Part shown: positions 25,901 to 64,000 of the stretch, in pieces
Numbering within the stretch: position 1 is the stretch's first letter
Layout of the letters: each line of letters starts with the position of its first letter
Assembly (NCBI RefSeq): GCF_004011695.2
Contig: NC_082411.1
Span: 372,001-436,000 of the forward strand
Source of the DNA: Ascochyta rabiei
Taxonomy: Eukaryota > Ascomycota > Dothideomycetes > Pleosporales > Didymellaceae
Reading direction: 5' to 3'
DNA length: 64,000 bases
Notes under the pieces: model-generated
What the model was told of the DNA's origin: nothing
Seen by the model: only the letters and a program-made list of their open reading frames with translations
The model's database searches: none
Translations under genes and position numbers: made by a program

Positions 25901-27387
25901 TCAACTGGGGAGTACGGCTGCAGAATCAGCTTCTTGCCACTGAGCTGGCCTACGATACAGACGGGCAGGACACTGCCTTCTAGGACACTGTTACAGGGCT
26001 GAATATGGACCAGCGCGCCGTATTTGATGCCGTTACTGCCGCTATTGAGGCTGACCACAGCACTGCCCACTTCTTCGTACAGGGCCCAGCAGGCACAGGC
26101 AAGACGTTCCTCTGGCGCTGTATATGTGCCTACTATCGCTCTACAGGCCGGGTGGTCCTGTGCGTTGCGTCGTCGGGTATAGCTGCTGTCCTGCTGCCCG
26201 GCGGCCGCACTGCCCACTCCCGTTTCCGGATCCCGTTGGATATCCACGACGATTCCATCTGCCCTGTTGCTCCAGGCTCGGAGCTTGGGCGGCTGCTGCA
26301 GGCCGCTACTCTAGTTATCTGGGACGAGGTGCCTATGCAGCACCGTTACTGCTTCGAGGCAGTCCACCGTATGCTGCAGGACGTCCGTAGCTCCCCTGCC
26401 CTGTTTGGCGGCCTCCCTGTAATTGCCAGCGGCGATTTTGCCCAGATCCTACCCGTCGTCCGCCGGGGCCAGCGGCCTGCCATCGTCAACACCTGCCTGC
26501 AGCAGTCTACGCTCATATGGCCGCACATGACCGTACTGCACCTGCGTCAGAATATGCGGGTGCTATCTGGGGCTGACAACACCTGTTTTGCAGCCTGGTG
26601 CCGGGGACTGGCTACCCGTGAGATGGATGGCCTGATCTCCATCCCAGACTGGATGACCGTCTACTACAGCCTACAGGGCTTCCTGGATCACGTCTATCCG
26701 CCGCACCTCCTCCAGCAGGCTGCTGCGGACTATCAGGTCCTCAACGGCCGTGCTATACTGGCCGTACGGAACGACGCAGTGGCTGTAATCAACGCCGCAA
26801 TGCTTGCTGCCTTCCCTGGTGAGCTAGTAGAGCTGGTTGCAGTGGACTCTGCTGAGGTTGAGGACAATACAACACAGGATCTGCCTCCCGTAGAGCTGCT
26901 GCAGTCCTTTGAGCCCCCGTCACTGCCCCCGTCACGCCTTCTGCTCAAGGTAGGCGTACCAATAATGCTTCTACGGAACCTGTACCCAAGCCAGGGGCTC
27001 TGCAACGGTACCCGTTTAGCGGTTACACAGATATCCTCCCGCTGTATCCAGGCCCGCATCCTATCTGGCGAGTTTGCAGGCCAGCTCCGCCTGCTGCCAC
27101 GTATCAGGCTCACTTTAACCAGTAGAGAGCTCCCGTTTATCGTCAGCCGGGTCCAGTTTCCAGTTCGCCTCTCCTTTGCAATCACTGTAAACAAGTCACA
27201 GGGCCAGTCACTCTCTGTTGTAGGCGTTAATCTGCGTTACGCTGTGTTTACACATGGCCAGCTATACGTAGCTATGTCCCATGTAACTACACTTGCAGGC
27301 CTGTCAATCCTGCTGCCAGCACCTGATACTAGCGATGAGCCATCCCGTACGGTCCCTAATATCGTATACCCAGAGGTGCTCCTGTAG
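22927..27387 (+). pseudogene. Helitron Rep-helicase (RepHel) with two in-frame TAG codons
   Basis: One reading frame, open from 22927; first ATG 23239. It is broken only by TAG at 25009-25011 and TAG at 25981-25983. Order: CSACGALHWIDE zinc-type motif, Helitron-like N domain, HUH motif GLPHIHLLLF at about 24601-24630, the tyrosine motif KYVHKYIYKG at 25054-25083, then a Pif1-type helicase with Walker A GPAGTGKT near 26083-26108, Walker B LVIWDEVP near 26311-26334, GDFAQILPVV and the C-terminal TVNKSQGQSL. Rep nicks and joins DNA in rolling-circle transposition; the helicase unwinds it. The first TAG separates the HUH histidines from the catalytic tyrosines, so without readthrough no full Rep is made. 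Both TAGs could come from CAG by C-to-T at CpA, as in RIP. The rest is remarkably intact. The true N-terminus is uncertain because no upstream in-frame ATG exists. Confidence 0.9.
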
Positions 27388-44869: not shown

Positions 44870-47800
44870 ATGGAGTCGCATCTTCCGCTGTCGCGCACGA
44901 CGTCAACGTCGACGTCGAGCACCAGCACCAGCACCGCGCCCTGGCAGCCATCGAGCGGCCCAAAGGCCAGGCCCAGCGAGCCCGAGGAGCAGCTGCTCTC
45001 GCCGCTGGGCACCGCAGCACTCGCGCCCGTGCACCCCGCCGTGCACCCCGCCGCCCTGCCCGCCGTGCACCCCGCCGTGCACCCCGCCGCCCTGCCCGCC
45101 GTGCACCCCGCCGCCCTGCCCGCCGTGCACCCCGCCGCCCTGCCCGCCGTGCACCCCGCCGTCCTGCCCGCGCGCCGCCCGTCCAAGGCGTCGGAGAGCC
45201 TGCTGGACTACTTTGGCCGGAACAACGGGTTTGCGGTCGAGGAGGAGCTGAACGATGCGACCAACGATGCGACCGCCTTGGCGGCAGCGCGGTCCCCATG
45301 CTCCTTGTCCGCCTCGGAAGCTAGGTCGCGGTCTGACGTCGAGGAAAACCGATCGCGGCACCTTTCCTTTTCTTCGCTGTACAGCCTAGGCTCCGCCATC
45401 TACGCAAACACTCGCGGCCCTTCTTGGAGCGGACGCAGCTCGCTCATCGGCAGCGAACCAGACGGTGCGACCCGCCTGCCAGCGGCCACCTGCCGCCAGA
45501 CGCCCCTTTTGCCTCGCGTGCCCGCTGGCTGACGGTCCTCACAGCAAAAATGTCCGAGCCCGCCGCGCCACACGGCACCGGCACCACCGCGACCTCGTCG
45601 CTGTCGGTGACCACGCAAAGCCAACATGGATCGCTGGGGCCCAAGCCCTCTCCCACCCAGCTGCTCTTTCCCCACGAGCAGGCTGATGTCCAGCACGCGC
45701 CCCCTTGTAGCTCCAACCCCACTGCCAACTCCAACGCAAATCCCAATCCTGGCACCGACTCCAACACCGTAACCTCGCCCACCAACCCCACCGCCGCCTC
45801 GCCGCCGCCCTTGTACCCACAGGCACCGCCCCCCTTGTACCCACAGGCACCGCCCCCCTTGTACCCACAGGCACCGCCCCCCTTGTACCCACAGGCACCG
45901 CCCCCTTTCACCCACAGGCACCGCCCCCCTTTCACCCACAGGCACCGCCCCCCTTATACCCACAGGCACCGCCCCCCTTCCACCCCCTGGCCCCGCCCCC
46001 CCGCCGCTCAAGAAGCCGGACCACAAGACGCACCAGCGGAACAGGAAGCACCGCGGCCAGCAGCAGCCCCGCCAGCATCGGCATGCGCGAGCCCAAGAAG
46101 CCCTGCAGAGGCATCATCGGCGTCTGCGCCCTCGAGTCCAAGGCCCGCAGCAAGCCCGCCCGCAACATCTTCGGCAAGCTGGTCGACGACTTCGAGGTCA
46201 AGATCTTTGGCGACAAGATCATCCTCGACGAGGACGTCGAGAACTGGCCCGTCTGCGACTTCCTCATCTCCTTCTTCTCCGATGGCTTCCCCCTCGACAA
46301 AGCCATCGCCTACGTGCGCCTGCGCAAGCCCTTTTGCGTCAACGACCTGCCCATGCAGCAGGTCCTGTGGGACCGACGCCTGTGTCTCTCCATCCTCGAC
46401 AAGCTCAACGTCCCCACCCCGAAGCGAATCGAGGTCAACCGCGACGGCGGCCCCAAGCTGCCCTCGGCCGACTTCGCCAAGCAGCTGTACGACCGCACCG
46501 GCGTCGCTCTGCTCGGCCCCGCGGACGGCACCGGCGGAGGCCTCCCGCCACCCAAGAGAATCGAGATGATGGACGACGGCGACACCCTCTTTGTAGACGG
46601 CCAGACGCTGACCAAGCCCTTTGTCGAGAAGCCCGTGAGCGGCGAGGACCACAACATCCACATCTACTTCCACACAAAGGACGGAGCCGGCGGTCGAAGG
46701 CTGTTCCGCAAGATCAACAACAAGAGCTCGGAGAAGGATGAATCCCTCGCCGTGCCCCGATCCATCACCGAGCCAGACACCAGCTACATCTACGAGCAGT
46801 TCCTGCAGGTCGACAACGCCGAAGACGTCAAGGCCTACACCGTAGGCCCGACCTTCTGCCACGCCGAGACCCGAAAGTCGCCCGTCGTCGATGGCCTGGT
46901 GAAGCGCAACCCCAGCGGCAAGGAGGTTCGCTACGTGACCAAGCTCAGCGACACGGAAGCCGCCATGGCTTCCAAAATCTCAGAGGGCTTTGGTCAGCGC
47001 GTCTGCGGCTTCGACCTGCTGCGTGCCGGCGACAAGAGCTACGTCATCGACGTCAACGGTTGGAGCTTCGTCAAGGACAATGGCGACTACTACGACAAGG
47101 CGGCCAACATCCTCCGAGACATGTTCCTGACCGAGATCCAGCGCAAGCAACGCAAAGACGCCGCCCAGAGCGCCGCCGTGGATGCGCAGGACGAGAGGAA
47201 CGGAGCGTCGAGAAAGAGCGTGTCGAGCCACCGCCACGCCCTGAAGGGGTTGTTCAAGAGTCCTAGTATGTCACGAGTGGGAGACCACCCCCGCCACCCC
47301 CACGCCCACCCCCACGCCCACCTCCCCCACATGCGCAAGGCTAGCACCATGCCTTCTTCCCCCGAGACTTCGCTAAGCACCCCCCCCGTCGCAGCTAGCC
47401 CCAGCTTCGAGAAGCCCGATTTCACCGCTGTGCTTGGCCCGCCCACGGCCGGCACGTTACCGCCTGCGCCCGCCTCGGAGCCAGACCTCTTGCCTCCGCC
47501 CGCCGTCCGAGAGGAGGAATACATGCTCGAGCCAGAGCGGTCGCGCTCCGAGGACCACCAAGCCCCCGTTCCTCCCCCGGCATCGAAAGCGCAGTGGAAG
47601 CTCAAGGGCGTCGTGTCCGTCATACGACATGCCGATCGCACACCGAAGCAGAAGTTCAAGTACACGTTCCACTCCCAGCCCTTTGTCGACCTGCTCAAAG
47701 GACATCAGGCTGAGGTCTTGTTGATTGGTGAACCGGCTCTGCAGAGCGTCAGCGATGCAGTCAAGCTCGCTCTGGACGAGAAGCGCGAGGATCCAAGGAA

Positions 47801-49916
47801 GCTCCGCGAGCTGCAGCTGTACCTGGGGAAGAAAGGTCCGTGGCCTGGCACCAAGGTGCAGATCAAGCCCATGTTCCGCAAGAGGAGAAAGGACGAATTC
47901 CTCCCCGGCGAATCCCCACCCGATGAGTCGCCCGAGAGGCAGAGGCAGGGCTCAACCTCCAGCCTGCTCCGAGACGCAGGCAACGAGAGCAGCAACGAGA
48001 CGGACCCGGAGCGACTCAAGAACAGGAGCGACTCCATGTCTGGCGTCACCCTGTCCCGCATCACCGCACAAGACAACAACATGGTCCTCGACAAGCTGCA
48101 GCTGATCATCAAATGGGGCGGAGAGCCAACGCACTCGGCTCGCCACCAGACCCAGGATATGGGAGCGAACCTGCGCAACGATCTGCTGCTGATGAACCGC
48201 GACGTCCTCGACGACGTCCACATCTTCAGCAGCTCGGAGCGAAGGGTCACCACCAGCGCCCAGATCTTCGGAGCCTCGTTCCTCGACAAGGATCAGTATC
48301 CGGCTGAGCAGATCCACGTCCGCAAGGATCTCTTGGATGACTCCAACGCCGCAAAGGACGTCATGGACAAGGTCAAGAAGAGGCTCAAGACCCTGCTCCG
48401 CGCTGGCGACAAGGCACCACCCCAGTTTGCGTGGCCCAAGGACGTGGCGGAGCCCTACATTGTCGTTCGCCAGGTGGTCGCTCTCATCAAGTTTCATCAG
48501 CGGGTGATGAACCACAACTTCAAGAAGATCGAGTCCGAAGCCATGTCCTCTCTCAGCGCCATCGCCTCTCCACCCGCCGCCGACGGCGCTCCCGGACAGT
48601 CCAAGCACACGAGCGTGAACCACATCCAGTCACGTTGGTGCTGCAACGAAGGCCCGGAGCTGTTCAAGGAGCGGTGGGAGAAGCTCTTCAAGGAATTCAA
48701 GGATGCCGATAAGGTCGATCCTAGCAAGATCTCCGAGCTCTACGACACGATGAAATTCGATGCTCTGCACAACCGTCCCTTCCTCGAGTGGGTCTTCACC
48801 CCAGACGACACCTTCACGGACGACGACGCGATCCCCGAGCCTCCCAGGCAGAAGACGTCCGACGAGCCAGCTGCAGCCGAGGGGAAGCCCGAGATCAAAG
48901 AGGGCAGCGCCGAGAAGCCCCACGAGCGCGGCAGCATCGCCCGTCGCATGGGCTTCAGACGGCCCTCGGAGATCGCCGTGAAGCCCGCCGTACCTCCCTC
49001 GTACGCAAACGAGTCTTACTTCAAGCTCTACACCGGCATGGGCAACGCGGCCTCCAAGGCTCGGATGGATGCCCGCCTGGTCAAGCTCCGTGAAATGTAC
49101 CACCTCTGCAAGGTACTCTTCGACTACATCGGTCCGCAAGAGTACGGCATCGAGAGCGAGGAGAAGCTGGAGATTGGCCTGCTCACCTCACTGCCGCTGC
49201 TCAAGGAGATCGTTGGCGACCTGGAAGAGCTGCAAGCATCGGATACGCCCAAGTGCTTCTTCTACTTCACAAAGGAATCGCACATCTACACCCTCCTCAA
49301 CTGCATCCTCGAAGGCGGCATCAAGACGAAGATTGAGCGCAATGCTATTCCCGAGCTCGACTACCTCTCGCAGATCAACTTCGAGCTGTACGAGTCGGAG
49401 AATGCAAGCACAGACGATGCGCCGCACACATTCAACTACAGCATCCGCATCACCCTGTCACCCGGTTGTCACGCCTTTGCGCCCCTGGACGTGTACGTGT
49501 CCGATACCGACATGCACTCGTGAGACATGCGCTAATCATCACACAGCCAACTCGATTCCCGCCACATGATTGGCTTCTCGCCCCGCCGCAGTCTCACCGC
49601 ACATCAAGACTGGAAAGAGGTCCTCGAGACGCTAAGAGCAAAGTTCCACACGTGCGTTCCCTGTACCTCGTCTGCCCTGGGAGCCCCTCGCTAACACCTC
49701 CCCAGTGTCAAGCTCCCCAAATCCTTCGTCGCCATCGACCTCAGCGAAAAGGAGGCCTTTGAGCGTAGGCTGAACGGGAACGGCAGTGGGAGTGGTCAGA
49801 CCAAGGAGAACCTCGACCCCGAAGCTGTGGAGAGGGGACGCAGCGAGGAGCGACGAGCGAGTGCGGACGCCGATGAACCGAGCACGGAACTCCCGCCTCC
49901 TGCGCTAGATGCTTAG
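44870..49916 (+). CDS. VIP1: Vip1/Asp1 inositol pyrophosphate kinase, frame broken by one base
   Basis: Makes inositol pyrophosphates (IP7/IP8) from IP6/IP7 in the cytosol; a C-terminal phosphatase-like domain opposes this. Exons: 44870-45464, 45545-49519, 49547-49651 and 49706-49916. Exon 1 has VHPAALPA repeats and the typical SLYSLGSAIYANTRG segment. Exon 2 starts AKMSEPAAPHG. The kinase (ATP-grasp) part begins IIGVCALESKARSKPARNI near 46110, with PWPTKR-like VPTPKRIEVNRDGG and DVNGWSFVKDN. The histidine-acid-phosphatase part begins VVSVIRHADRTPK near 47605-47645. The reading frame is interrupted at the C-run 45901-45905, which has five C where sister repeat units have six; frame 1 upstream and frame 0 downstream are each coherent. 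With a six-C run the protein would be 1628 residues. As sequenced, translation of the kinase could only begin at 46083 (MREPKKPCRG). A sequencing error is the simplest cause. Confidence 0.85.
45029..45170 (+). repeat. 12/24-bp repeat coding VHPAALPA
   Basis: In-frame units based on GTGCACCCCGCC and GCCCTGCCCGCC in VIP1 exon 1. Confidence 0.8.
45819..45985 (+). repeat. 24-bp repeat coding PPPLYPQA with one 23-bp unit
   Basis: Seven units start CAGGCACCG and continue with a C-run. Six have a six-C run; the fourth (C-run 45901-45905) has five. This single base moves the reading frame. Confidence 0.9.
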
Positions 49917-50244: not shown

Positions 50245-52234
50245 TCACAACAGCCCCGGTAAGCGCTCCTCAACGTACCGCCGCACCTCGTCCACCGACC
50301 CCACAATCTCAACGTAGCAGTCTGGCCGCACGAGCACGGCGTAGGCATCCCCCGGTCGGACGTACGAGCAGCCGAAAGTCTCCGCATCTGCCTCCCCCTC
50401 GTTTTGCAAACCGGCGGGCTCGCGGCTGGAAGCGGAGGCGGGGACCGAGACAACGCCCACGTTCCGCGCCTTCAGCTCGGTTAGTTTCAGCAGCGAGAGG
50501 AACTGGGGTGTCTTGGGCTTGAGGACGTCTTTTTCGTGCTCTGCGTCTGCGGCTGCGGCTGCGGCTGCGGCGCCGACGAGCACGAGCACGTAGCGGCCGT
50601 AGACGAGGCGCTGGTAGAAGCGCAGGTCGTCGTTTGCGCGGTGGTCTCTCAGCCACAGATCCGGGGCGCGGTGGCCGGCGCGCCAGACGCCGCGCTCGCT
50701 GTTGGTTACTAGCGGAGACGCGACGTCGGCGTACTGCACGCCCATGCCGGTGATGAAGGCGGCGTTTTGCTCAATCAGGGTCACGTAGCCCTTTGCGTCG
50801 GCCATGGTGCTGCGCACGAGCTGTGCTGCGACGTTGATGACGCGGGCTGCTGTTGCGCGGCGCTCGGTGTCGTAGGACGAGAGGAGCGCCGTTGCTGACG
50901 ACGCCGGGAGGGACGGGTGGCCGAGGACGAAGTAGAGGCGCCAGATTAGGTTGAAGGCGTCCGAGAGGCCCGTGTTCATGCCCTGCCCGCCGTTGACGGA
51001 GTGGACGTGTGCGGCGTCGCCGGCGAGGAGGAAGGGGCCGGTGGGGGTTGGGTGGACGAGGGTTGTCGCGACGCGCTCTTTGACTGTGGCGTGGGTTAGT
51101 GGGAGTTGTAAACGGTAGGGCTTGGAGGCCGTTTGGGTGTCGTGTCTACGCCGACGAGATGGAATCAACGGACCGACTTACTCTCAAACTTGCTGAACCA
51201 CTCAACATGTGTAAACTCAACCGGATGCGGCGCCATGTGTCTTCGAATCGAAGCCTCCGTCTTCTCCTGTGTAATCTCCCCATCGAGCAAGACGTAGAAT
51301 CTCTGCATGCCACGTTCACTGAGCAGTCGTCAGCAGTCGTCCCAACCAGCCCAATCACGACCGGAACACACTCACCGCGGAATCCACGCCATCCTCGACT
51401 CGCCATCGACCTGCAGCGTGACAATCTCTCTCGTCACAGGGAACGTCGTGTCGATCCAGCAATCCAACACGGCCCACACCATGTTGGGTTTCGTGCCCTC
51501 CCAGCCAATGCCCAGCTCGCTTCGCATGAAGCTGCGCGCTCCGTCGGCCGCGAGGCAGAATTTCGCTTGCACGGTGCGCTTTGCTGTGTGGACGGTCACG
51601 CTCATGGGCGACGTTGTGTGAGAGAAGGAGAGCGCGGGCTCATCGTAGTGCACGGGCACGTCCATGTGAGAGGTAAAGTGGCGTTCTATAAAGGGCTGGC
51701 CGATCATGAGGAGGTGGTTGTAGAAGGTGTGGGGGATACCGTTCCACCACTTGCTTTGCCGGCTGGTGAATTCTCCATCAGCGTAGGTTGTGCTTGCTAT
51801 CGGGGTGTTGTCAGCACGGCAGTTTGGAGCTGGCCTTGTATCGTGCTGGCTTACTGTTGCACTTCACACCTCGGTTCAGAAGCTCTCCGAGGATACCTGC
51901 ATCTTTCCCGTTCTTTGGCTCCGCGTTGCTGGCGACTTCCAGATACTGCTGGGTTCGAGCTGTGATGGCATCTGCGCCGCCAACTTCTAGAGGTCCTTGC
52001 TTTGCATCGAGGATCGAGACGCTGAGCCCGAGTTGGCGGGCAAGCAGAGCGGACAGCAGGCCTGTTGGTCCAGCTGCAGGTGGATCAGACTCTGACTTGC
52101 ATGCATGTGGATTCTGTGTTTTGTTTACCTCCAATGATGACTAGATCAACCTCTTCGACTGGCTTGGTGGACTCTTGAGCACGTCTGTGGTCCTCAAACT
52201 CAACAGCACCGCCAAAGTCCTGAGGAATGGCCAT
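50245..52234 (-). CDS. FAD-dependent aromatic-type monooxygenase
   Basis: Five exons on the minus strand: 52129-52234, 51855-52073, 51376-51796, 51182-51318 and 50245-51083, giving 573 residues with all phases matched. The Rossmann start LVIIGAGPTGLLSALLARQLG spans the first intron (residues 32-52). The middle has CLAADGARSFMRSELGI, and GPFLLAGDAAHVHSVNGGQGMN carries the GD motif at residues 316-317. This is the p-hydroxybenzoate/phenol-hydroxylase class, which hydroxylates a substrate using NAD(P)H, FAD and oxygen. The C-terminus has the thioredoxin-like extension of phenol 2-monooxygenases (SYVRPGDAYAVLVRPDCYVEIVG). An Ala run at about residue 478 comes from a GCN repeat. Adjacent to an MFS transporter and an isocyanide synthase, it is a likely tailoring enzyme of that cluster (inference). 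Confidence 0.86.
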
Positions 52235-53188
52235 TTTTGATATAGGAAGAATCAACTCGTTCAATATGGCTTGAAGTCCTTCAAACCGAGCCTTTAGTAC
52301 TGCGAGTCTGGAGCAATATACCGTCGAGTGCCTAGGCCTATCTTTTGCACCTTCGATCTCGCGCAATCCGACGAGTTTTCTTGATCAGCATAGCTAGGTT
52401 CATGCGCGCGATACGTGTCTCGTGCTGGTACGGAGTATCTCGGCAGACGCAGCCCTGTTGTTGGACGTCGATGCTCGGAACACCGAGTCAGGATGGATTC
52501 TTCAGTCCCGGTGTTATGCAGTCTAGAGGTCCAAACACCCAAATCCATCCATGGGCTAAGAAAAGTACGTCGCATCGCAATGCCTGTGTACTGTCAGGCC
52601 ACAAGAGGTAGGTGGCATGCGTCGGACGTAGCACTGGCTAGTGTCACCGGCGACTAGTCGGTATCAGGAAGTGTGGGAGGGGTTTGATTGCCCTGGATCA
52701 ATAGCCTGTTCGCAGGATCAAAAGCATCGTGTCCTAGAGCGTGTTCTACAACGGACGCATGCTCGATGTGGATAGTGGTGCACATGCATGGGTGTGTTCC
52801 ACCGGGTCGGACCGAATCAAAGGCTTTTGTGGCGAACGTTGCGTTCATGCGCGAAATGCTCCTCGTCCTGCCCTTGGAAATTTCATCGGGGCGTGGAGGA
52901 AGGATGCAGATGCCGGGGCGCGCAAGGAGACTTTAGCCACGTGCTTTCCGTGAAAGCGAGAACGATACTTTGGGCACTAGTAGGGGTTGCAGGGGTCCCG
53001 GTAGATTGCAGGGCAGACAAGCGAGCTTTAGCCCCATACTGGGCCACCGGCACATGTTTCTTGCAAAAGGCGAGGCACTGCCGTGCTGTCTGTCGAAGCC
53101 ATCACCCCCACGCTACACGACGCCACCGTCAAACAAGGACTGGATTAGATATCGGATATTGGAAATTTCCGTCGTATTGTTTTAGAAT
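52235..53188. other. Promoter of FAD monooxygenase and 3' flank of MFS gene
   Basis: About 0.95 kb with no supported gene. Confidence 0.5.
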
Positions 53189-54550
53189 CTACTCTAAGCC
53201 ATCGGCCCGTGCCGCGCTTTTCCTGCGACGGACGTCCAACGTCCAACACACGACCAGCAACAGTCCACCTACAATAGTGAACACAGCACAGTAACTAGCA
53301 AGGCCGCTCCATCCAGGCCCAGTGTCTCGTTGGATGGCACCAGCGACTGGATTGCCGATCAAGCTCGCGATTGCATTTCCAGCGAAGAGCACTCCAATCC
53401 TGCCTCCTAGTCTGCTCATGTCTGGAGTCAGCGTTGCCGCACTGGCTGGGATGAGGCTGATGACGCTCCCACTGACGAACCCGTACGCAACAACCCAGAC
53501 AATCAGGCCGGCGAGAGATGTTTTGATGCGTGTCCAACCTGCTGCCAGCGCACCGCACGCGATCGCTGCGAGCGCTTGAGTAAGTACTGGTCCGGCGACA
53601 AACTTATCGGCGACAAAGTTTGGCACAATTCGACCAACCAATCCACCAGCGTTCATGATGCTGATCAGGTAGTATGTGCTCAGACCTTGCACCGGGAATG
53701 CAGTGTCGCGCACCCAAGCGCTGATGTAGAAGTACGGGATGTAAATGCCGGCAAACGAGAAGAAGATGCCTGCAATGAAAAGGGCATATGCGGGATCCTT
53801 CAAACAGCTGAATTCGTAGAGCGTCCGCTTGGCGGGGTTCTTCGTCAAAGCAGAGCGCTGACGTACAAGCAGACCTCCGACGCCAGTCGTGATCAGTACA
53901 ACTAGAGCCGTCGCTCGGATAGCCCAGCTGAACCCTACACTAGCAAGTAGACGGCGCGTAAGAATTGGATAGATGATCCCACCAAGCGAAGCTCCGCTGT
54001 TCGCAAGGCCGACAGCAAGAGCGCGGTTTTGCGTAAAGTACGTGGGTACGATGGCCGTAGAGGGTACTAGGAGCAGACTCATGCCTAGGCCTGATAGAAT
54101 ACCTTGCGAAAGTAGTACTTGGTAGTACACGGGACGATGCGCAGTGGAAAACTCCCCGCTGAAAGACGTGAATAGCAAGCCAAGAGTGACAAGCGCGCAG
54201 CCGATGAAGGACATGACCTGGGCGTATCCTCTATCTACGAAGGAGCCGGTCGCAGATCCACATGCCAATAGTAGAAACGTCTGGAGAGATCCAATCCACG
54301 ATATGGAAGATGGTGTTGAGAGTGCCGGATTGAACGAGCTGTAATATTCCTGGAAGACTCCGAAAGCATTAATCAGGCCCCTTTGCCTATGGTCAGCTAA
54401 ACACTCTTACTTCGGTGGTAGAGCCTACCAAGAATTGAACATCAGAAACAGGCCAGCTACGACTTGAACCCAGGGTCTAAGGCTCGACGCCATTTTGTTC
54501 GAGTCGCTTTGTGTGGCAACTTGCGATGCGGTTGTCTTCTCGGCTGCCAT
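53189..54550 (-). CDS. MFS monocarboxylate-type transporter
   Basis: Two exons on the minus strand, 54429-54550 and 53189-54380, give 437 residues with about 12 membrane segments. The first exon (MAAEKTTASQVATQ, then LRPWVQVVAGLFLMFNSW) joins GLINAFGVFQEYYSSFNPALS, a standard opening of fungal MCT-like transporters; without it the protein would lack the first helix. Further signs are SWIGSLQTFLLL, GSATGSFVDRGYAQ and RALAVGLANSGASLGGIIYPI. It should move a small organic anion, vitamin or metabolite across the plasma membrane. It is divergent from the isocyanide synthase across 786 bp and so may export its product or take up a precursor (inference). Confidence 0.86.
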
Positions 54551-55336
54551 GATGGATTGTGAGCTGTGTTTGGCAGTCAACGCAACCTTTGTCGAAAACT
54601 TGCAAATCAGTGAGTAGTTGGTTGACTAAGACTTTTGCGACGGCACGATTCAAGTCGCCTGCTCGTACGACATTGCCACGTGAAATTGGGAAGATCCACA
54701 TGTAAGCCCTATACGAACTCAAACTCTTTACAAGGCTTTCAGATCGATGGGAGATGCAATAGCATAGGTAAGCAAGCGGAATAAGCCCGTAAGTTGACCG
54801 ACCTTGCCTAGCTGGGTCAATCCGCCGTGATGTACAATCGGGTCATCCCGAGGAACGCAAGAGTCCCCGTGCGCGGAAGATATGCATGTCAATCATTGGC
54901 AGTATAGTGGGTATACATCGGGAAGGTTGTCTTGCGGTTGAACGTATCGTTCTCGTCCTCGGTCTGAGCGCTGTGCTTGGCGACCTAAGTCGGGACTAGC
55001 TGATACATTGCTACTCAGGTCTTGATAAAGTGGAGGTGCAATCCTTCACTGTGGTGGCAAATGGGACAATCAGGGGTCCTTCCAGATGCAATTACAAGCA
55101 AGGTTGTGCGAAGGACCTCGGGACAGAGTTTGTCAAACGGTGATCACGCCCGAAAGAGAGGAGAGGGAAAAAAACCAGAATTTGTAGAAGCGTGGAGGCT
55201 GTCAGAAAAAGCATAAATGAGCACTTGATGCCAGATTGAACAAATCAAGACCATTCGGACCGGAGTGAAACAGTCACCAGGGAGTCCCCAGCTCATTCAC
55301 TCCTTCTCGCTTCTGCTCACATTCATTTCTTACAAT
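54551..55336. promoter_or_regulatory. Shared MFS / isocyanide synthase promoter
   Basis: 786 bp between the two divergent starts. It contains the TCGG-N6-CCGA palindrome at 54838-54851. No ORF inside is supported. Confidence 0.55.
54838..54851. promoter_or_regulatory. TCGG-N6-CCGA zinc-cluster factor site
   Basis: TCGGGTCATCCCGA: inverted CGG triplets six bases apart, the binding pattern of the Ppr1/UaY type of Zn2Cys6 regulators. It sits 288 bp from the MFS start and 486 bp from the isocyanide synthase start. No zinc-cluster gene is seen next to the cluster. Confidence 0.5.
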
Positions 55337-57290
55337 ATGCCTCTCCTCTTTGGGTCGGGTACACCTCCACCCTTCGAACATAGCACCCCGTCCTACCTCC
55401 AATCAAACACGATGGAAACATCGCAGCGTATTCTCGATGTTATATTGCGTTACAGGTCTCCTCTGCCGAAGGATTCCCCGGATCGTAGTGACGAGGGCGT
55501 GCTCAAATCCCTTGGCCTCATCTACCGAGCGGTGAAACACAGCGAACCAGTTCGCATGGTACTTCCTGCTTTTCCTTTCAAAAGTCCAAACAGCAGCGTT
55601 AAAGTCCTGGGTACCCTTCCAGATAAGGCCGAGGACGTAGCTCTGGCCCATCTGAATGGACTATGCGCTGCAATCGAGGACATCTACCCCCCGGGCGCCG
55701 TTCTTACCATCGTCTCGGATGGCTTAGTTTACAACGGTTCGTGTTCTTTTGATACCTTCCTAGTCGATGCTGACGATATTAGACCTGCTAGGCGTGCCAG
55801 ACCATACAGTCTGGACTTATGGCCAATCTTTGCGACAACTTACCAAGACCAAGGGATACACGCACATCGACTTTGCACGACTCAAGGACCTGCTTGGCAT
55901 CTCTTCTCTGCGTGAAGATATTGATGAGATGGCCTATGCTGCTGTTGCGCCTTCAATCCGCCTCGCACTGATGCACCGGTACGGCAGCTTCAATTGGGAC
56001 TCTGTGACCAACGAATCGTACGTCAATAACGACGAGAACAAGAGGTTGACCTACTGCGGATACCTAAAGTTCCTCGCTTTGGATTTGGCGAACACCTACC
56101 TAATCGGTCAAGGGCGAACGAAGAGCGCGTTCAAGAGAGGTGTCGAGGTTATTGCAAAGAGTATGCTGAAACGCGGCGAAGCATTCGCAAGAGCGGTTCG
56201 GGAAAACTATCCCGATCATGTTCGACTCTCCATTCATCCAAGCACTGGCGAGGACAAGATATCGATCAACGTCCTGCCGATGAATAGAGTCATTACGCCG
56301 TGGCACAGCACTGTAGCTATAATGGTCGACGGAACAGTGCTGGCAGGACAGCGTAAGGAATTCGAGGAAGACACAAGAATGGAGCTGGTGTATGAGGATG
56401 GAAGGCCGAGCTACTTCCGAGAACGATCGCCCTTATATCACTGGGATCATTCAGTTCCTGTGGCGTTCGAACCGATGTATCCTTGTGGAATCATGATCAG
56501 GCCGGCCGAGGGCGCCAAATCCTTGTCCATCCAGGACATCGATGCCCGCAGAGTAAGGGAACTGGCCGAACTGAACTCGCCTGTAATTCTGAGAGGCTTC
56601 AAGCAAACCAAGGATCGAGATGCTTACGTCGCAAAATCGTATGAAATGGGTGTACCGACACCATGGAAATTCGGCCTTGTACTCGAAGTGAAGGATTGTG
56701 GTAACGAAGGCCAAGGTCTGAACAACGTGCTAAGCCAAGAGTGGATGCCTTTCCATTTTGACGGCATGTTCAAGACCCAGAAGCAGAGGCGAGACGACGG
56801 AACCGAACATCTTGTGCCTAACCCTCCACGCTTCCAATTCTTTGCTGCAGTCACACCAAGCCCAAAAAACACCGGATACACGCTATTCTCGAGCTCGAAA
56901 CTTGTTTTCGACCATCTCCCGGCAGATAAGTCGTCGAAACAGCTCGAAGCATTAACATGGTCGGTCAAGACCCCCTCATTTGACCAATCACTCATTGGCA
57001 ATATGCCACTTGTTGCGACACATCCTTCCACAGGCCGACCTTGCCTCAGATACCACGAGCGGTGGCCTCAAGAGAAAACTCGTTTCGACCCGACCGAGGT
57101 AGAAATTGAGAGCGACGACGGGACCATGTGCGACGTCCTGGAAAAGTTGTTGCATGACCGCAGGGTATGCTACTGGCACTCATGGAAGGAAGGAGACCTT
57201 ATTGTCAACGACAACATCTCTATGCTGCACACAAGAAGCTCGTTTCAGGCGGGTGTTGATCGAGAGTTGTGGCGAATCCATTTTGACTGA
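55337..57290 (+). CDS. Isocyanide synthase-dioxygenase (DIT1/PvcA + TauD)
   Basis: Two exons, 55337-55736 and 55783-57290, give 635 residues. The N-terminal half (about 25-335) is the DIT1/PvcA isocyanide synthase domain: VLPAFPFKSPN, VLGTLPDKAEDVAL, IYPPGAVLTIVSDGLVYNDLLGV. The 46-bp intron lies inside this motif. This domain turns an amino acid amine, with ribulose 5-phosphate as carbon donor in the bacterial enzyme, into an isonitrile. The C-terminal half (about 380-635) is a TauD/PvcB-type Fe(II)/2-oxoglutarate dioxygenase with the HxD pair H458/D460 (PFHFDGMF), distal H616 (ISMLHTRSSF) and an Arg near the end (RELWRIHFD). The fusion is a known layout in fungal isocyanide clusters. With the MFS and FAD genes it makes a compact cluster. 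The start at 55337 is the first ATG; 55409 is an alternative. Substrate and product are unknown. Confidence 0.9.
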
Positions 57291-58395: not shown

Positions 58396-59745
58396 TTACC
58401 TATCAACTGTAACCATCCAACCATCACTCAGTACGTTACCTCCGGAATCGACACCGCCCCAGACAACGCACGTTGCCCCGTCTACCTCTGTGCCTTTCGC
58501 GATACCGAATTGACCCCTTTCTCCAAGGCCTCGCTTGGGCTCTCCAGGGATCTCTTTCTCTTCCTCCCCCTTAGTGTCAACGTAGTTGTAAAGTACTTCC
58601 GCCCATGTAGCCTCATGTGTGTCTCGTTTCAAGGTAGAACGGATAGCATCCTTGGTTGCTGCTGCGGTCGCATACTCTGGGGGCAACTGGAAGGTCCAGA
58701 TGTCATCCAAATGTCTTGCGTCTTCGCCTTCGCCACCGATGGCGACGAGGTAGTGCCGTCCTTGACCGGTGGTGACCTCAACAAGTCCAGCATTCGACCG
58801 CGCCTGTGGCACTGATAGATCTTTTGAATCGGCGTGCGAGACTTCCTGCCACGCCCAGCCGCTGGTCAGAGGGGTTGTCCCACCTTCTGCGTGATTAAAG
58901 ACCGGCGCAACGTCTAGATACTCCAGAGCACCCGATGCAAAAGTTTCGACACCTTTGCCTCCAAAGCGATATAGCCTACTGCCTGCGAGTGACAGGCTAG
59001 CGCCTTCACGTGGCTGCCCAGGCGGCGAGGGGATGTTCGACCAGGAGCGCGTTCTCAAGTCGAAAGCCAGAGCATCGTTTGCAAGCTGACCGCTCGAAAC
59101 ATTACGTCCACCAACAATGAAAATAGTGCCCCAAGTATCATCCACAGGGGGTTCTGGAACATTCTTCGAGGGGTCTACCGGCTGTTGAGGTGCTCTCTCT
59201 TGGTATGTGATGGACTTCGCTGCTGGGAAGTCTGAGCTCGCAGAGGTGTGTCCCACGCGTTGGCTTGGGGCCGACGTGCCAGGAGCAGGGTCAAGATATG
59301 ACCATGTGCTCGAGACCGTGTGGTAAGCCCAAACTCTTCCATTCTCTTCGGAATCAACTTCACCTCTTCCTCCAAATACGTATATTGAATCTCCAATTAC
59401 TACTGCAGTGTGACCTTTTCGTGGACCCGGTACGTCGTCTAAGCCATTGGCAGCCTGCGCAGGTTTCGAAGTATAGTCTGCGTCGAGTACACCACTGGAT
59501 GGTAGGATGATGATATGCATGTCGTTATCAGCTAGTTTTCCAGGCGCCGTCTCACCACCGAAGATGTAGGCTCGACCCTTGACGACTGAGACGGTGTGCT
59601 GTGAGCGTGGCAATGGAACAGAGGTGATGCGTGTGAGATTGGTCTTGATCGGTAGAGTTGGATAGGTTATACCCTTCACCAGAGCGGCTGCACCCTGTAA
59701 GATGTTCTCTGCCGCGTATAGGATTCCGGCTGCGGCTGGCTCCAT
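58396..59745 (-). CDS. Kelch-repeat protein
   Basis: Single exon, 449 residues. Kelch blades are visible as repeated hydrophobic-GG motifs: GRAYIFGGETA, DSIYVFGGRGE, GTIFIVGGRN, SRLYRFGGKG, HYLVAIGGEGE and TCVVWGGVD, with matching Arg/His-rich strands (PRSQHTVSVV, PRKGHTAVVI). That is a six-bladed propeller. A conserved fungal group of such proteins is known, with unknown function; plant nitrile-specifier proteins share the fold. No membrane segment or signal peptide. Whether it belongs to the neighbouring isocyanide cluster cannot be told. Confidence 0.82.
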   Translation of the reverse strand: MEPAAAGILYAAENILQGAAALVKGITYPTLPIKTNLTRITSVPLPRSQHTVSVVKGRAYIFGGETAPGKLADNDMHIIILPSSGVLDADYTSKPAQAANGLDDVPGPRKGHTAVVIGDSIYVFGGRGEVDSEENGRVWAYHTVSSTWSYLDPAPGTSAPSQRVGHTSASSDFPAAKSITYQERAPQQPVDPSKNVPEPPVDDTWGTIFIVGGRNVSSGQLANDALAFDLRTRSWSNIPSPPGQPREGASLSLAGSRLYRFGGKGVETFASGALEYLDVAPVFNHAEGGTTPLTSGWAWQEVSHADSKDLSVPQARSNAGLVEVTTGQGRHYLVAIGGEGEDARHLDDIWTFQLPPEYATAAATKDAIRSTLKRDTHEATWAEVLYNYVDTKGEEEKEIPGEPKRGLGERGQFGIAKGTEVDGATCVVWGGVDSGGNVLSDGWMVTVDR

Positions 59746-60226
59746 GATGTTGAAAGCGGCGATAACTTTTGGCGATTTGTTTGGTTTAGAGGTTTGGTAT
59801 CCGAGCGTAGGTCGAACAAAAAGCTTGAGGCCTTTCTTTAAATCGCTACTCAGATCGTGGTGATGGAAGAAGATGTAGTGGTGTTAACAGACGGCGGCTG
59901 GAGCTCAGTGTTTGAGCTTACGACAGTGACGTCATACCACACAAGGCTGGCTGAACCCTTGTTCAGCCCCACCAAAGGTGCTACTGCCACATCTAGCAGT
60001 CAAAGTAAGGCCTTGAGTTGATTTTGAAATCACTCAAGATATCAGATCTTCGTTGTGCATGGTTAACGGTATACGTAAAAAGTTGGTCATTACATATTAG
60101 TGAGCGGGCATGGCTTCGACGTTTTCGTGTGCGTGTATGTGGTATCACTGGACGACTTATGCTGGACAGATTCCAACTCCAATCCGACATGTATGCTATA
60201 CCATGGGCGCCAGGCTCTTCTATGAT
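59746..60226. other. Kelch promoter and 3' flank of ABC1 kinase
   Basis: 481 bp; no gene or strong motif seen. Confidence 0.45.
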
Positions 60227-62463
60227 TCATTTGTAGTATCCACCAGAGTGTTTAGATGTTGGGCGACAATTGATCATATTTGACGCAACGCTCGACCTAG
60301 CCTTGGTGAGTTTTAGGTCACAATAGAGCATCCGAATGGAACTTACTGTATCGATTGAAGCTTGTAAGAAGCTACGTGCTTCAAGGCCGACCCAGACCTT
60401 GAGCATTGAGAAGTCTCCACCGCGGATCATAGAGCCGCCGCCCTGAGCACCAAGCTGTCGCAGTATCGGAAGAGCGCTGTGATGCGTCAGTTCGTAATTA
60501 AGCTGCACGGGTCGTGATACTTACCCAGCGAAGAGGTCCAGTTCCGGGTTCAGATTCCTGCCAATGCCTTCCAAGAGCAAGATGCTGAGGACAACGTTGA
60601 TAAAGTCACCTTCTAGACGAACATGATGCGTTCGCACCATCGACAGAACCTCGTTCAAAATGTCTCCAATCTTGATGTTACCAAGAGCAAAAGTGCGACT
60701 TTTGACACCCAAGACCAGATGTTGCATGCGTAGAGCAAACACCTCGCCGTCCAAAACGGCCTCAGGTTGCCTACATCGTTCGACCATCAAGTGTCCTGCT
60801 TTGTAACCGTCGAACTCAGCCACTGCTTTGAAAAGGTCTAGGAAGTTTGTACGGTTTTTGCCGTTAAGCTCCGTCACCAGTCCTGCATCAATGAAGATAA
60901 GTTGCGGTCGGTAACCTTCGTTGTCAATTTCCCGTAGTCGAGCCTTCCACTGTTCGGGGTTCTTGCGATGCGGTCGCAGGCGTTCTAGTACCTCCTCTGT
61001 GACATCAGTAGATTCGATAGGTCCAGTGGTGCGATTCTCTTTGCGAGTAAAGATTGGTACATCAAGCTTCTCGGGCTTGTAAAACCGCACCATGATATTG
61101 CCGGGGTGCAAATCAGCGTGGATGAAGTTATCGATGAGAACCATGTTCAGGAAAGCGTCGAGCCCCTCATCAGCAATGTCCTTCTGGAAGACTCCTCCGC
61201 CGTTCTGCAGAAAGTCTTCCATAGGTATGCCCTGTGCAAACTCTTCTATCAGGACATTGCGGGTCGAGTACTCAGTGTAAGGGTACGGGAACCAGGCCGT
61301 TGATCGATCCTTGAAATTTTGGCGGAAGATGGTCAGGTTGGCAGCCTCAATACGCATATCGAGCTGTAGCCTCATCATCTCACCAAATTGCTCTACCTCG
61401 TCTGGAAATGAAAACCACTCCATCGTCGGGATTGCGTTGATCACAGCTGCAAAGAAGGCCATTATGCGCAAGTCTCTTCGGACGATCTTCTCAATCTTAG
61501 GATGTAAGACCTTGACAGCAACATGACTTGAAGGCACTCTCTGCGGCGTACTCTTCAGTGTTGCGTCAACGTTCTTCTTGATCCTCCGCGCAAAGTTCGG
61601 CTCTTCTTGGTCAATGGTGTTATCCTGTAATGTAGCTAGATCCGGCTTGAGCTTGGCTTTATAGACCTGTGCAATTGCACCCACGCCAAGGGGCTGCTCG
61701 TCGAATTCCTCGAAAATGTCGTCAAACCGACGCCCATTGAAGGCAGCTTCTACTGTCCGTTTCGATGTCTCAAGCGAATGTGCGGGGGCGTTCGAGTGTA
61801 AGGTAGACATGATCGAGCACATCTCCGTGGGGAAAATATCCGTTCGGGAGGCGGCCCATTGTCCTAGCTAGCAAACGTTAGAGCATTAAAAAACGATACA
61901 GATCAGACTCGTACCTTGATGAAGGCCGCCCCAGCCCGCTCCATTGAGCTGACGAGGAATCCATACCACCACAATGTTCCACTCCTCTCGTTGTCTCTAT
62001 CGGCTTTCCTGGACCCAATCCAGATCGCAGGTATCGTCACAATGACGGGTACGAATATAATGACCAGGTGCAGAAACCGCAAGCCCGTAGCTATGGGCTC
62101 GATTATGTAGTCTTCCACGAAAAAATAGATCCCACGCCTGTACTTCTTTGAGTTCTCCAAAGCTTTGGGGACTTGTTCTGCAAGTTCTTTTCTCGAAGCC
62201 TCAAGCATGGCCTCTTCTTGCGTCTTCTCTCCATTCCCAGACTTATCGTGACTGATCTCAACAAATGCAAGAGGGCTGAGGGCTACCCCACCTACTGCAG
62301 CAGCGCCGGACCATAGTATTGTTTTACCGCCAAATCGAGGTGTTGCGAACTGTCGGCGCGCGGCGGAGACGAATGAGCGCGTTGGCGCGCGGGCGACAAA
62401 GGGCGTGGACTGCTGCAGGCCTTGTCGAAGACATTGTCGACCCAGCAGGAAGACAGTCCTCAT
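60227..62463 (-). CDS. Mitochondrial ABC1/UbiB-family kinase (CQD1/ADCK2-like)
   Basis: Four exons on the minus strand: 61915-62463, 60525-61867, 60347-60476 and 60227-60301, giving 698 residues. ATG 62463 opens a mitochondrial targeting sequence rich in Arg, Ser and Gln (MRTVFLLGRQCLRQGLQQS...). A membrane segment follows (LRFLHLVIIFVPVIVTIPAI, about 137-156). The ABC1-specific KxGQ motif is K183-L-G-Q186, split by the first intron. Then come QPLGVGAIAQVYKAKL, VAVK (K302), HADLHPGN at 433-440 and IDAG at 511-514. These are the atypical-kinase motifs of the UbiB/COQ8 family. KLGQWAASRTDIFP and the long linker point to the Cqd1/ADCK2 branch, linked to coenzyme Q and lipid distribution. The last intron (45 bp, stop-free, in frame) could be retained. 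Confidence 0.87.
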
Positions 62464-62850: not shown

Positions 62851-64000
62851 CTAGGCGGTGACAAACCCTTCGAACCCGTTCTTCAACGACTTCTGCGTTA
62901 GCTCGGTGTACAGCGGGAACCCACCAGCAAAATTGAGCTGTTCGCGGACTTTCCCGGGGATGTTTGAACCCATATACCAGCTGTCCGTCTGGGGGAATAG
63001 AGTCTTGTCTGAGAGTTCTGTAACCTTCTCGCGCCAGTCCTCTTCAGCCTGGCGAGTGGCATCACAGTAATCGATCTTCTGGTCCCGTAGCATCTGCATG
63101 CACTTGACGATCCAGTCTCCCTGGACCTCAACACAGGTTGGGCCGTTGGAAAAGGCAGTCGGGCCTTGAGCACCGTACAGGAAGAAAATGTTGGGGAAAC
63201 CAGATAAGGCCATACCCATGTATGTGTATGTTCCGCTCTTCCAGGTGTCTGATAGCTCGACGCCGTCAACGTTTCGCAGACCCATATTCCTCATACCGCC
63301 AGTCACCGAGTCGAAACCAGTGGCGAGAGCGATAACATCGAATTTGTGCAGCTTGCCATCAGACGTAACGATGCCCTCTTTGGTGAACTTCTCGATTGGT
63401 GTTGCCTTGCAATTGACAACAACGTTCTCCGGTCTGTCGAGCATCTCGTAATAGTTCTGCTCGAGTGATGGCCTCTTGGTACCGAAAGCATGAACAGGTT
63501 CCAGGGGTGCAAGGATGTCGCGCTTTACTGGGTCTGAAATCCTTGCGCGGGTCTTCTTTGCCCAGAAATTGTACGCTTCCCTGTTGGCCTTGTTATCAAA
63601 CAGCAGGTCCTTGTAGTTGGCAAGCCAAAACTCGAAGCCACCGTTCTGCCACAGTTTCTCGTAAAAAGCCTCGCGCTCCTCGGGGCTATCGTCGAAGGTG
63701 TTCTTCTCGATGTAGTCGTATTGGAAACCAGCGAATGTGTTCAGACGGGTTTTAAAGATGGTCTCATACTCTGTCTCCTTTCTCCTATCTTGCTCTTCTC
63801 GTGTAAGAGGCTTTTGTTCCATTGGCAAGCACAAATTTGGAGTTCGGACGAAGTTGGTCACTGAAGCTGCCTCCTTGGAAGTCTCCTGAGCAATCTGGAT
63901 ACCGGTCGAACCAGTACCGATGACGCCAACACGCTTGCCCTTGACATCGACGCCGCCATTGGGCCAGAACGAAGAGTGGTGGATCTCGCCCTCGAAGTCC
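62851..64000 (-). CDS. Baeyer-Villiger-type flavin monooxygenase, partial
   Basis: C-terminal part of a minus-strand gene that runs off the right window edge; about 383 codons are visible without an intron. The visible N-terminal end carries the Baeyer-Villiger fingerprint FEGEIHHSSFWP and then the second Rossmann motif VGVIGTGSTGIQIAQ. Downstream are FDVIALATGFDSVTGG, GPTAFSNGPTCVEVQGDWI and SWYMGSNIPGK, typical of cyclohexanone-monooxygenase-like enzymes, which insert oxygen next to a ketone using FAD and NADPH. The internal Met at 63861 is not the start. It may belong to secondary metabolism, but two conserved genes lie between it and the isocyanide cluster. Confidence 0.88.
   Translation of the reverse strand, partial: DFEGEIHHSSFWPNGGVDVKGKRVGVIGTGSTGIQIAQETSKEAASVTNFVRTPNLCLPMEQKPLTREEQDRRKETEYETIFKTRLNTFAGFQYDYIEKNTFDDSPEEREAFYEKLWQNGGFEFWLANYKDLLFDNKANREAYNFWAKKTRARISDPVKRDILAPLEPVHAFGTKRPSLEQNYYEMLDRPENVVVNCKATPIEKFTKEGIVTSDGKLHKFDVIALATGFDSVTGGMRNMGLRNVDGVELSDTWKSGTYTYMGMALSGFPNIFFLYGAQGPTAFSNGPTCVEVQGDWIVKCMQMLRDQKIDYCDATRQAEEDWREKVTELSDKTLFPQTDSWYMGSNIPGKVREQLNFAGGFPLYTELTQKSLKNGFEGFVTA

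Follow-up and report, generated by a model that had tools for sequence, protein, structure and literature searches.

The three genes of the locus

We analyzed a stretch of 64,000 nucleotides (hereafter the window) from the genome of Ascochyta rabiei, a 40.9-Mb assembly in 23 contigs; the window covers positions 372,001 to 436,000 of contig NC_082411.1 (C7:372001-436000). It contains a compact group of three genes, which encode an isocyanide synthase (ICS) fused to a TauD-type dioxygenase, a transporter of the major facilitator superfamily (MFS), and a flavin adenine dinucleotide (FAD) monooxygenase. A preliminary description, made from the letters of the window alone, had reported these genes at the coordinates and on the strands given below; both were confirmed, with small corrections to the exon structure of each gene.

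The fusion gene is located on the forward strand at 55337-57290 and encodes a protein of 635 amino acids (aa) in two exons (55337-55736 and 55783-57290), as determined from the splice model, Pfam matches, and homologues. In the splice model, a 46-bp GT...AG intron (55737-55782, forward strand) interrupts the synthase domain; the preliminary description had read the gene as one frame. It had also recognized a DIT1/PvcA synthase joined to a TauD enzyme, and both domains matched Pfam above the cut-off, in one chain and in this order. The DIT1_PvcA domain (PF05141, E 1.7e-91, 307 bits) comprises residues 62-335, which the splice model places at 55520-56387 on the forward strand, intron included. 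The TauD Fe/2-oxoglutarate domain (PF02668, E 1.7e-22, 81 bits) comprises residues 381-632 (56523-57278, forward strand). No Pfam domain other than these two was found in the protein.

An alignment of 122 proteins was assembled from the window fusion, a paralogue from contig C5 (described below), and 120 homologues listed from a search with 1029 matches. The iron-binding triad of the TauD domain, reported earlier as an intact HxD...H site, is indeed present as H458, D460, and H616; these residues are kept in 122, 122, and 121 of the 122 proteins, respectively, and the exception for H616 is one gap. Among the matches listed, the closest homologues are from Ascochyta lentis, with 87-88% identity, followed by Boeremia, Neodidymelliopsis, and Stagonosporopsis. 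These relatives and the spliced genes point to a fungus, of a Didymellaceae-like kind within the Pleosporales. In a FastTree phylogeny of the 122 sequences, the window fusion groups with two Ascochyta lentis proteins (support 99) within a set of 28 sequences (support 100), while the C5 paralogue is distant and on a long branch. The possibilities of a chance match or a pseudogene were ruled out: removal of the one intron yields a full-length frame, and homologues reach the identities given above. Chance is also excluded because of the E-values and the conserved gene set. One homologue, from Alternaria alternata (P0035), is a partial entry of 523 aa with the synthase Pfam domain only, yet the start of its TauD domain, including the HFDG motif, is visible.

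The MFS gene is divergent from the fusion gene and occupies 53189-54550 on the reverse strand. Its product of 439 aa is encoded by two exons (54550-54429 and 54386-53189) separated by a 42-bp intron; the assignment relies on Pfam and homologues, with an MFS_1 match (E 4.9e-25) in the open reading frame (ORF) at 53189-54268. The 95 listed homologues fall into two groups, with 52 having at least 58% identity and the remaining 43 less than 50%.

Beyond the MFS gene, at 50245-52234 on the reverse strand, lies the FAD gene, whose five exons (52234-52129, 52073-51855, 51796-51376, 51318-51182, and 51083-50245) and four introns encode a protein of 573 aa. The ORF of the last exon matched FAD_binding_3 (E 1.9e-18), and Rng_hyd_C remained below its cut-off (25.8 of 27.5 bits). 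The sequences GAGPTG, ADGARS, and AGDAAH, which we take to be the GxGxxG, DG, and GD motifs, are present and lie in conserved columns. The best PDB relative by sequence is VibO (E 1.1e-39), and 3-hydroxybenzoate hydroxylase and phenol hydroxylase were also found. The predicted fold of a homologue that is 83% identical to the FAD protein (P0216) matches 3-hydroxybenzoate hydroxylase, a fungal hydroquinone hydroxylase, VibO, and phenol hydroxylase. The FAD_binding_3 domain, the motifs, and the matching fold identify the protein as a flavin monooxygenase of the phenol-hydroxylase type.

The divergent MFS and fusion genes are separated by an intergenic region of 786 bp (54551-55336, no strand assigned). 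The Mac1/MacA site TTTGCTCA, as quoted in PMC11563359, had zero matches in this shared promoter and in the 954 bp upstream of the FAD gene. Control by low copper, which had been suggested earlier, was therefore set aside as unsupported by the one site tested. An AceA-like pattern was matched at two places, one upstream of the FAD gene and the other downstream of the synthase, and is too degenerate for use.

Conservation and genomic context of the gene set

To the 120 listed synthase homologues we compared the 120 FAD homologues listed of 5707 matches, one of which had no contig (119 usable), and the 95 listed MFS homologues. Each protein cluster is labeled with the size of its longest contig, and an equal label was counted as a shared contig. 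Coincidental matches between the lists are unlikely because no label repeats within any of them. For 38 of the 120 synthase homologues, a listed FAD homologue lies on the same contig; the number is 15 for a listed MFS homologue and six for both. The 43 MFS sequences with less than 50% identity include none that is on the contig of a synthase homologue. The contigs on which synthase and FAD homologues occur together are from what we take to be Dothideomycetes, Sordariomycetes, and Onygenales, among others.

Locus tags, compared by eye where the prefixes were the same, give a finer picture. In Coniothyrium glycines, the tags of all three genes are consecutive (ACN47E_007989 to 007991). In eight of ten comparable genomes, the tag of the synthase is at most two away from that of the FAD protein; synthase and MFS tags are at most one apart in three of four, as are MFS and FAD tags. 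The pairwise distances between the synthases correlate with those between the FAD proteins (r 0.90; none of 2000 permutations was as high). Three of the 38 pairs, in which one member exceeded 700 aa, were omitted from this comparison, leaving 35. The cassette is thus more than mere proximity. The wider unit is that of synthase and FAD protein, which the MFS subfamily accompanies mainly in the closer relatives of the window. In this ICS-TauD clade, the partnership with the FAD enzyme is conserved.

Nine of the 120 listed FAD homologues are proteins of 813-933 aa that contain both the FAD and the MFS Pfam domains (P0222, P0261, P0263, P0264, P0274, P0295, P0325, P0332, and P0333). The FAD motif is N-terminal in seven of these and was not found in P0332, and P0222 has the reversed order. 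These joined proteins may be merged gene models, and we gave them no weight as a functional clue.

The flanking genes that were scanned encode an inositol-pyrophosphate kinase/phosphatase (45711-49520), a Kelch protein (58399-59883), and an ABC1 kinase (60524-61867). Because these look like housekeeping genes, the context suggests that the cassette consists of three genes. Genome searches for p450, AMP-binding, and ketoacyl-synthase domains (92 of 128, 14 of 63, and 23 of 23 candidates scored, respectively) had no match in the window, in agreement with the earlier remark that it lacks a nonribosomal peptide synthetase (NRPS), a polyketide synthase, and a cytochrome P450. The nearest p450 matches among the candidates scored are at C7:243450 and C7:487205.

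Two other regions of the window deserve mention. At 22927-27384 on the forward strand, a series of ORFs ends in a PIF1-like helicase (E 3.3e-66); one of the upstream ORFs has no Pfam match, and those preceding the helicase appear to us Helitron-like. An ORF at the window edge (62854-63999, reverse strand) has weak, below-cut-off FMO-like and Pyr_redox_2 matches.

The genome contains two further ICS loci, a diverged ICS-TauD on contig C5 and a dit-like locus on contig C1. The C5 paralogue (at about 1,690 kb; L007:5553-7552) is identical to the window fusion in 240 of 609 aligned residues, has a 50-bp intron at the same codon as the window intron, and carries K and H at the selectivity sites discussed below. 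It adjoins a large ORF that by eye resembles a histidine kinase. Visual inspection of the ORFs of at least 130 aa in three C5 stretches (L007, L008, and L012; no domain scan was made) revealed no evident MFS or FAD partner, and the FAD query had no match on C5. With no evident partner, the C5 paralogue was ruled out as a duplicate of the cassette. The C1 locus (at about 902 kb; C1:899054-904851, L009) has an ICS without a TauD match and a P450 on the other strand. A DJ-1/PfpI match is located about 1.6 kb beyond its synthase-domain match, and an MFS-looking ORF was noted by eye. Because these other ICS loci exist, deletion of the window gene alone may leave other isocyanides. In total, 21 TauD-family stretches were found at 16 places in the genome, and ICS fusions occur only on C7 at 428 kb and on C5 at 1,690 kb. 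The 16 places contrast with the tree of PMC5974471, in which the fungal PF02668 proteins shown are all ICS hybrids.

Predicted product and alternative readings

The predicted fold of an 87% identical homologue of the fusion (P0001; predicted template modeling score, pTM, 0.87) has PIsnA, PvcA, P.IsnB, and PvcB as its top PDB matches. In the fold alignments, which include a PIsnA-L-tyrosine complex, the synthase domain shares 28-31% identity with PIsnA and PvcA. Among NCBIfam models, that of the L-tyrosine isonitrile synthase PvcA comes nearest (137 bits, far under its cut-off of 600). The aromatic, tyrosine-like substrate that had been proposed from the phenol-hydroxylase partner is reasonable in view of this model and of these nearest folds.

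In the TauD domain, K464 and H558 correspond to K107 and N188 in PIsnB, while PvcB has L and C at these sites (alignment to 7tcl and 3eat). According to PMC9467999, K or R together with N or H goes with a vinyl isonitrile, and L together with C with an isocyanoacrylate. The fusion thus has residues of the PIsnB type and not of the PvcB type. Of the 122 aligned proteins, 121 have K and one has R at the first site; at the second site, 120 have H and two have a gap. Among the homologues with a residue at the site, all have the vinyl-isonitrile signature (120 of 120 at the first and 118 of 118 at the second). The product of the TauD half is therefore forecast from the aligned residues to be a decarboxylated vinyl isocyanide. 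The preliminary description had envisaged a small modified amino acid isonitrile; the compact isocyanide cassette stands, and a vinyl isocyanide is likelier than an amino-acid isonitrile because the TauD half has PIsnB-type residues.

We propose, with a probability of about 0.6, that the locus is a conserved three-gene isocyanide cassette that makes a tyrosine-type isocyanide, converts it to a vinyl isocyanide, oxidizes the ring, and exports the product. The N-terminal domain would convert the amine of an amino acid, with L-tyrosine as the likeliest candidate, into an isocyanide; the type of reaction is that of the family, and the substrate is suggested by the nearest relatives. The fused TauD domain would then oxidize the isocyanide with loss of CO2, as the two published diagnostic residues suggest, and would yield 4-hydroxystyryl isocyanide if the substrate is tyrosine. 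The flavin monooxygenase may oxidize the phenol ring, most simply to a catechol, and the MFS protein would export the product. Isocyanides bind metals, and many are antimicrobial. The likely role would be metal-directed or copper-enzyme-directed chemistry against competitors or hosts.

Several observations weigh against this proposal. The chain of steps is a prediction from sequence and fold, and the FAD enzyme could act on some other molecule. Tyrosine is the inferred substrate, and CrmA uses valine (PMC9381783). In PMC9467999, single swaps at either selectivity site left the product unchanged, making the rule correlative; since all aligned proteins show its pattern, it also cannot separate members of the family from one another. 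Of the shared contigs, those of at most 150 kb number eight of 38 for synthase and FAD and nine of 15 for synthase and MFS, and sharing is weak evidence on large contigs. No listed FAD partner was found for 82 of the 120 synthase homologues, and no listed MFS partner for 105, many of the contigs being short. In two genomes (tag prefixes E8E13 and E8E12), the tags are 52 to 155 apart, and the correlation between synthase and FAD distances also reflects shared species history. Eight known promoter patterns were searched, with no de novo motif discovery, and none links the three genes. The window contains no Zn2Cys6 match (150 of 208 candidates scored), the nearest being at C7:443556, about 14 kb beyond the synthase, and no DJ-1/PfpI match of the isocyanide-hydratase-like kind (10 of 10 candidates scored).

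The FAD gene could instead be a conserved neighbor that serves a separate aromatic catabolism, with the pathway consisting of the fusion enzyme and the transporter only. Its product has an aromatic-hydroxylase fold, which several catabolic enzymes share, and the gene has its own promoter region, which none of the eight patterns links to the other two genes. In contrast, it is the wider partner of the synthase (38 of 120 listed homologues versus 15 of 120 for the MFS subfamily). Nor is it an interchangeable copy, as its best-scoring other match in the same genome is 34% identical. We consider this explanation unlikely.

A different end product would result if the fusion halted at a non-decarboxylated isocyanoacrylate and the catechol formed by the FAD enzyme cyclized to an isocyanocoumarin, as in the pvc pathway to paerucumarin. 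The activities are the same as those of the pvc operon, in which PvcC is a flavin hydroxylase, although of another fold, and PvcA and PvcB are among the best fold matches. However, the fusion has K and H where enzymes of the PvcB type have L and C, and we regard this outcome as quite improbable. An aliphatic substrate for the synthase, such as the valine of CrmA, with a target of the flavoenzyme other than a phenol, appears very unlikely: tyrosine (proposed for XanB, PMC5974471) as well as valine (CrmA, PMC9381783) serves as a substrate of fungal synthases, but the partner flavoenzyme is of the phenol-hydroxylase type, and two points of PMC9467999 fit a phenolic substrate, namely that PIsnB and PvcB only hydroxylated a para-fluoro analogue and that a benzylic cation is proposed.

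Our preferred reading remains the cassette for a ring-oxidized vinyl isocyanide, and it can be taken further. An ICS-TauD with a flavin monooxygenase might constitute a widespread, separate pathway of filamentous ascomycetes in which the phenol ring of the vinyl isocyanide is opened or contracted. Such a pathway could be the missing genetic basis of orphan tyrosine-derived isocyanides and would make Dothideomycetes unsuspected producers. Dermadin, the isonitrins, and trichoviridin, cyclopentenyl isonitriles of Trichoderma, are examples of such tyrosine-derived compounds. VibO, the relative of the FAD enzyme, forms an oxepinone (title of 7yj0), and Trichoderma proteins are present among both the synthase and the FAD homologues listed. 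Among the same matches, no shared contig was seen for the Trichoderma synthase and FAD proteins, and no title on a Trichoderma isonitrile gene cluster appeared among those listed from the open-access literature. We put this extension forward as a speculative and rather doubtful one.

To our knowledge, few products of fungal isocyanide clusters have been established. The conservation described here singles out a minimal three-gene cassette common to many fungi. The residue pattern names a concrete product, and one enzyme assay could assign chemistry to the whole clade.

Comparison with known isocyanide systems

A survey that catalogued 3,800 fungal isocyanide clusters (PMC10153163) found ICS-TauD proteins to be 36.2% of fungal ICSs. 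The commonest neighbors were MFS transporters (about 60%), P450s (34.6%), zinc-finger regulators (21.3%), and isocyanide hydratases (21.1%). The MFS and phenol-hydroxylase-type genes had been called usual partners of the synthase; this is borne out for the transporter, while the flavoenzyme is not named as a usual partner in the survey, whose main text lacks the word monooxygenase and refers to 'oxidoreductases' among the core genes of some families.

The closest described backbones are the ICS-dioxygenase fusions XanB and IcsB of Aspergillus fumigatus (PMC5974471), which combine the same two families in one protein as the window fusion; a two-step XanB reaction was proposed, analogous to that of bacterial IsnA-IsnB. 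The surrounding genes differ: where the xan cluster has a Dit2-like P450 (XanG) and an isocyanide hydratase-like gene (XanA), the window has a flavin monooxygenase and no match to either of the two (92 of 128 p450 and 10 of 10 DJ-1/PfpI candidates scored). Membership in xan was ruled out by this gene content. The dit clusters combine an ICS with a Dit2-type P450 (PMC10153163), and the window synthase has the DIT1_PvcA domain in common with this superfamily; since the window locus has no P450 match among the candidates scored, it was ruled out as a member. Membership in crm was also ruled out, as the fusion contains only DIT1_PvcA and TauD and no NRPS-like domains. The cassette homologues are presumably spread over several of the classes represented in the family GCF 6. 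This family (Nickles et al., PMC10153163) has an ICS-TauD backbone and occurs in Eurotiomycetes, Sordariomycetes, Leotiomycetes, Dothideomycetes, and one basidiomycete; as a guess, the cassette may belong to it.

Among bacterial systems, isnA-isnB of the rhabduscin type performs the same two steps, and both the folds and the K/R plus N/H pattern of a vinyl isonitrile agree with the fusion. PIsnA and PIsnB are two separate proteins, which in the fold alignments are 28-29% and 24% identical, respectively, to the fungal domains. We know of no phenol-hydroxylase-type FAD partner of isnA-isnB. The pvcABCD genes for paerucumarin, which form one transcript (PMC3639982), likewise combine a synthase with an Fe/2-oxoglutarate enzyme, but this TauD relative is of the PvcB type, whereas that of the window is of the PIsnB type.

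No paper on the pairing of a flavoenzyme with an isocyanide synthase was found in the open-access collection searched, and the word 'FAD' does not occur in PMC5974471. ICS-TauD fusions themselves are already known; what is added here is the pairing of a flavoenzyme with this clade and the clade-wide forecast of a vinyl isonitrile.

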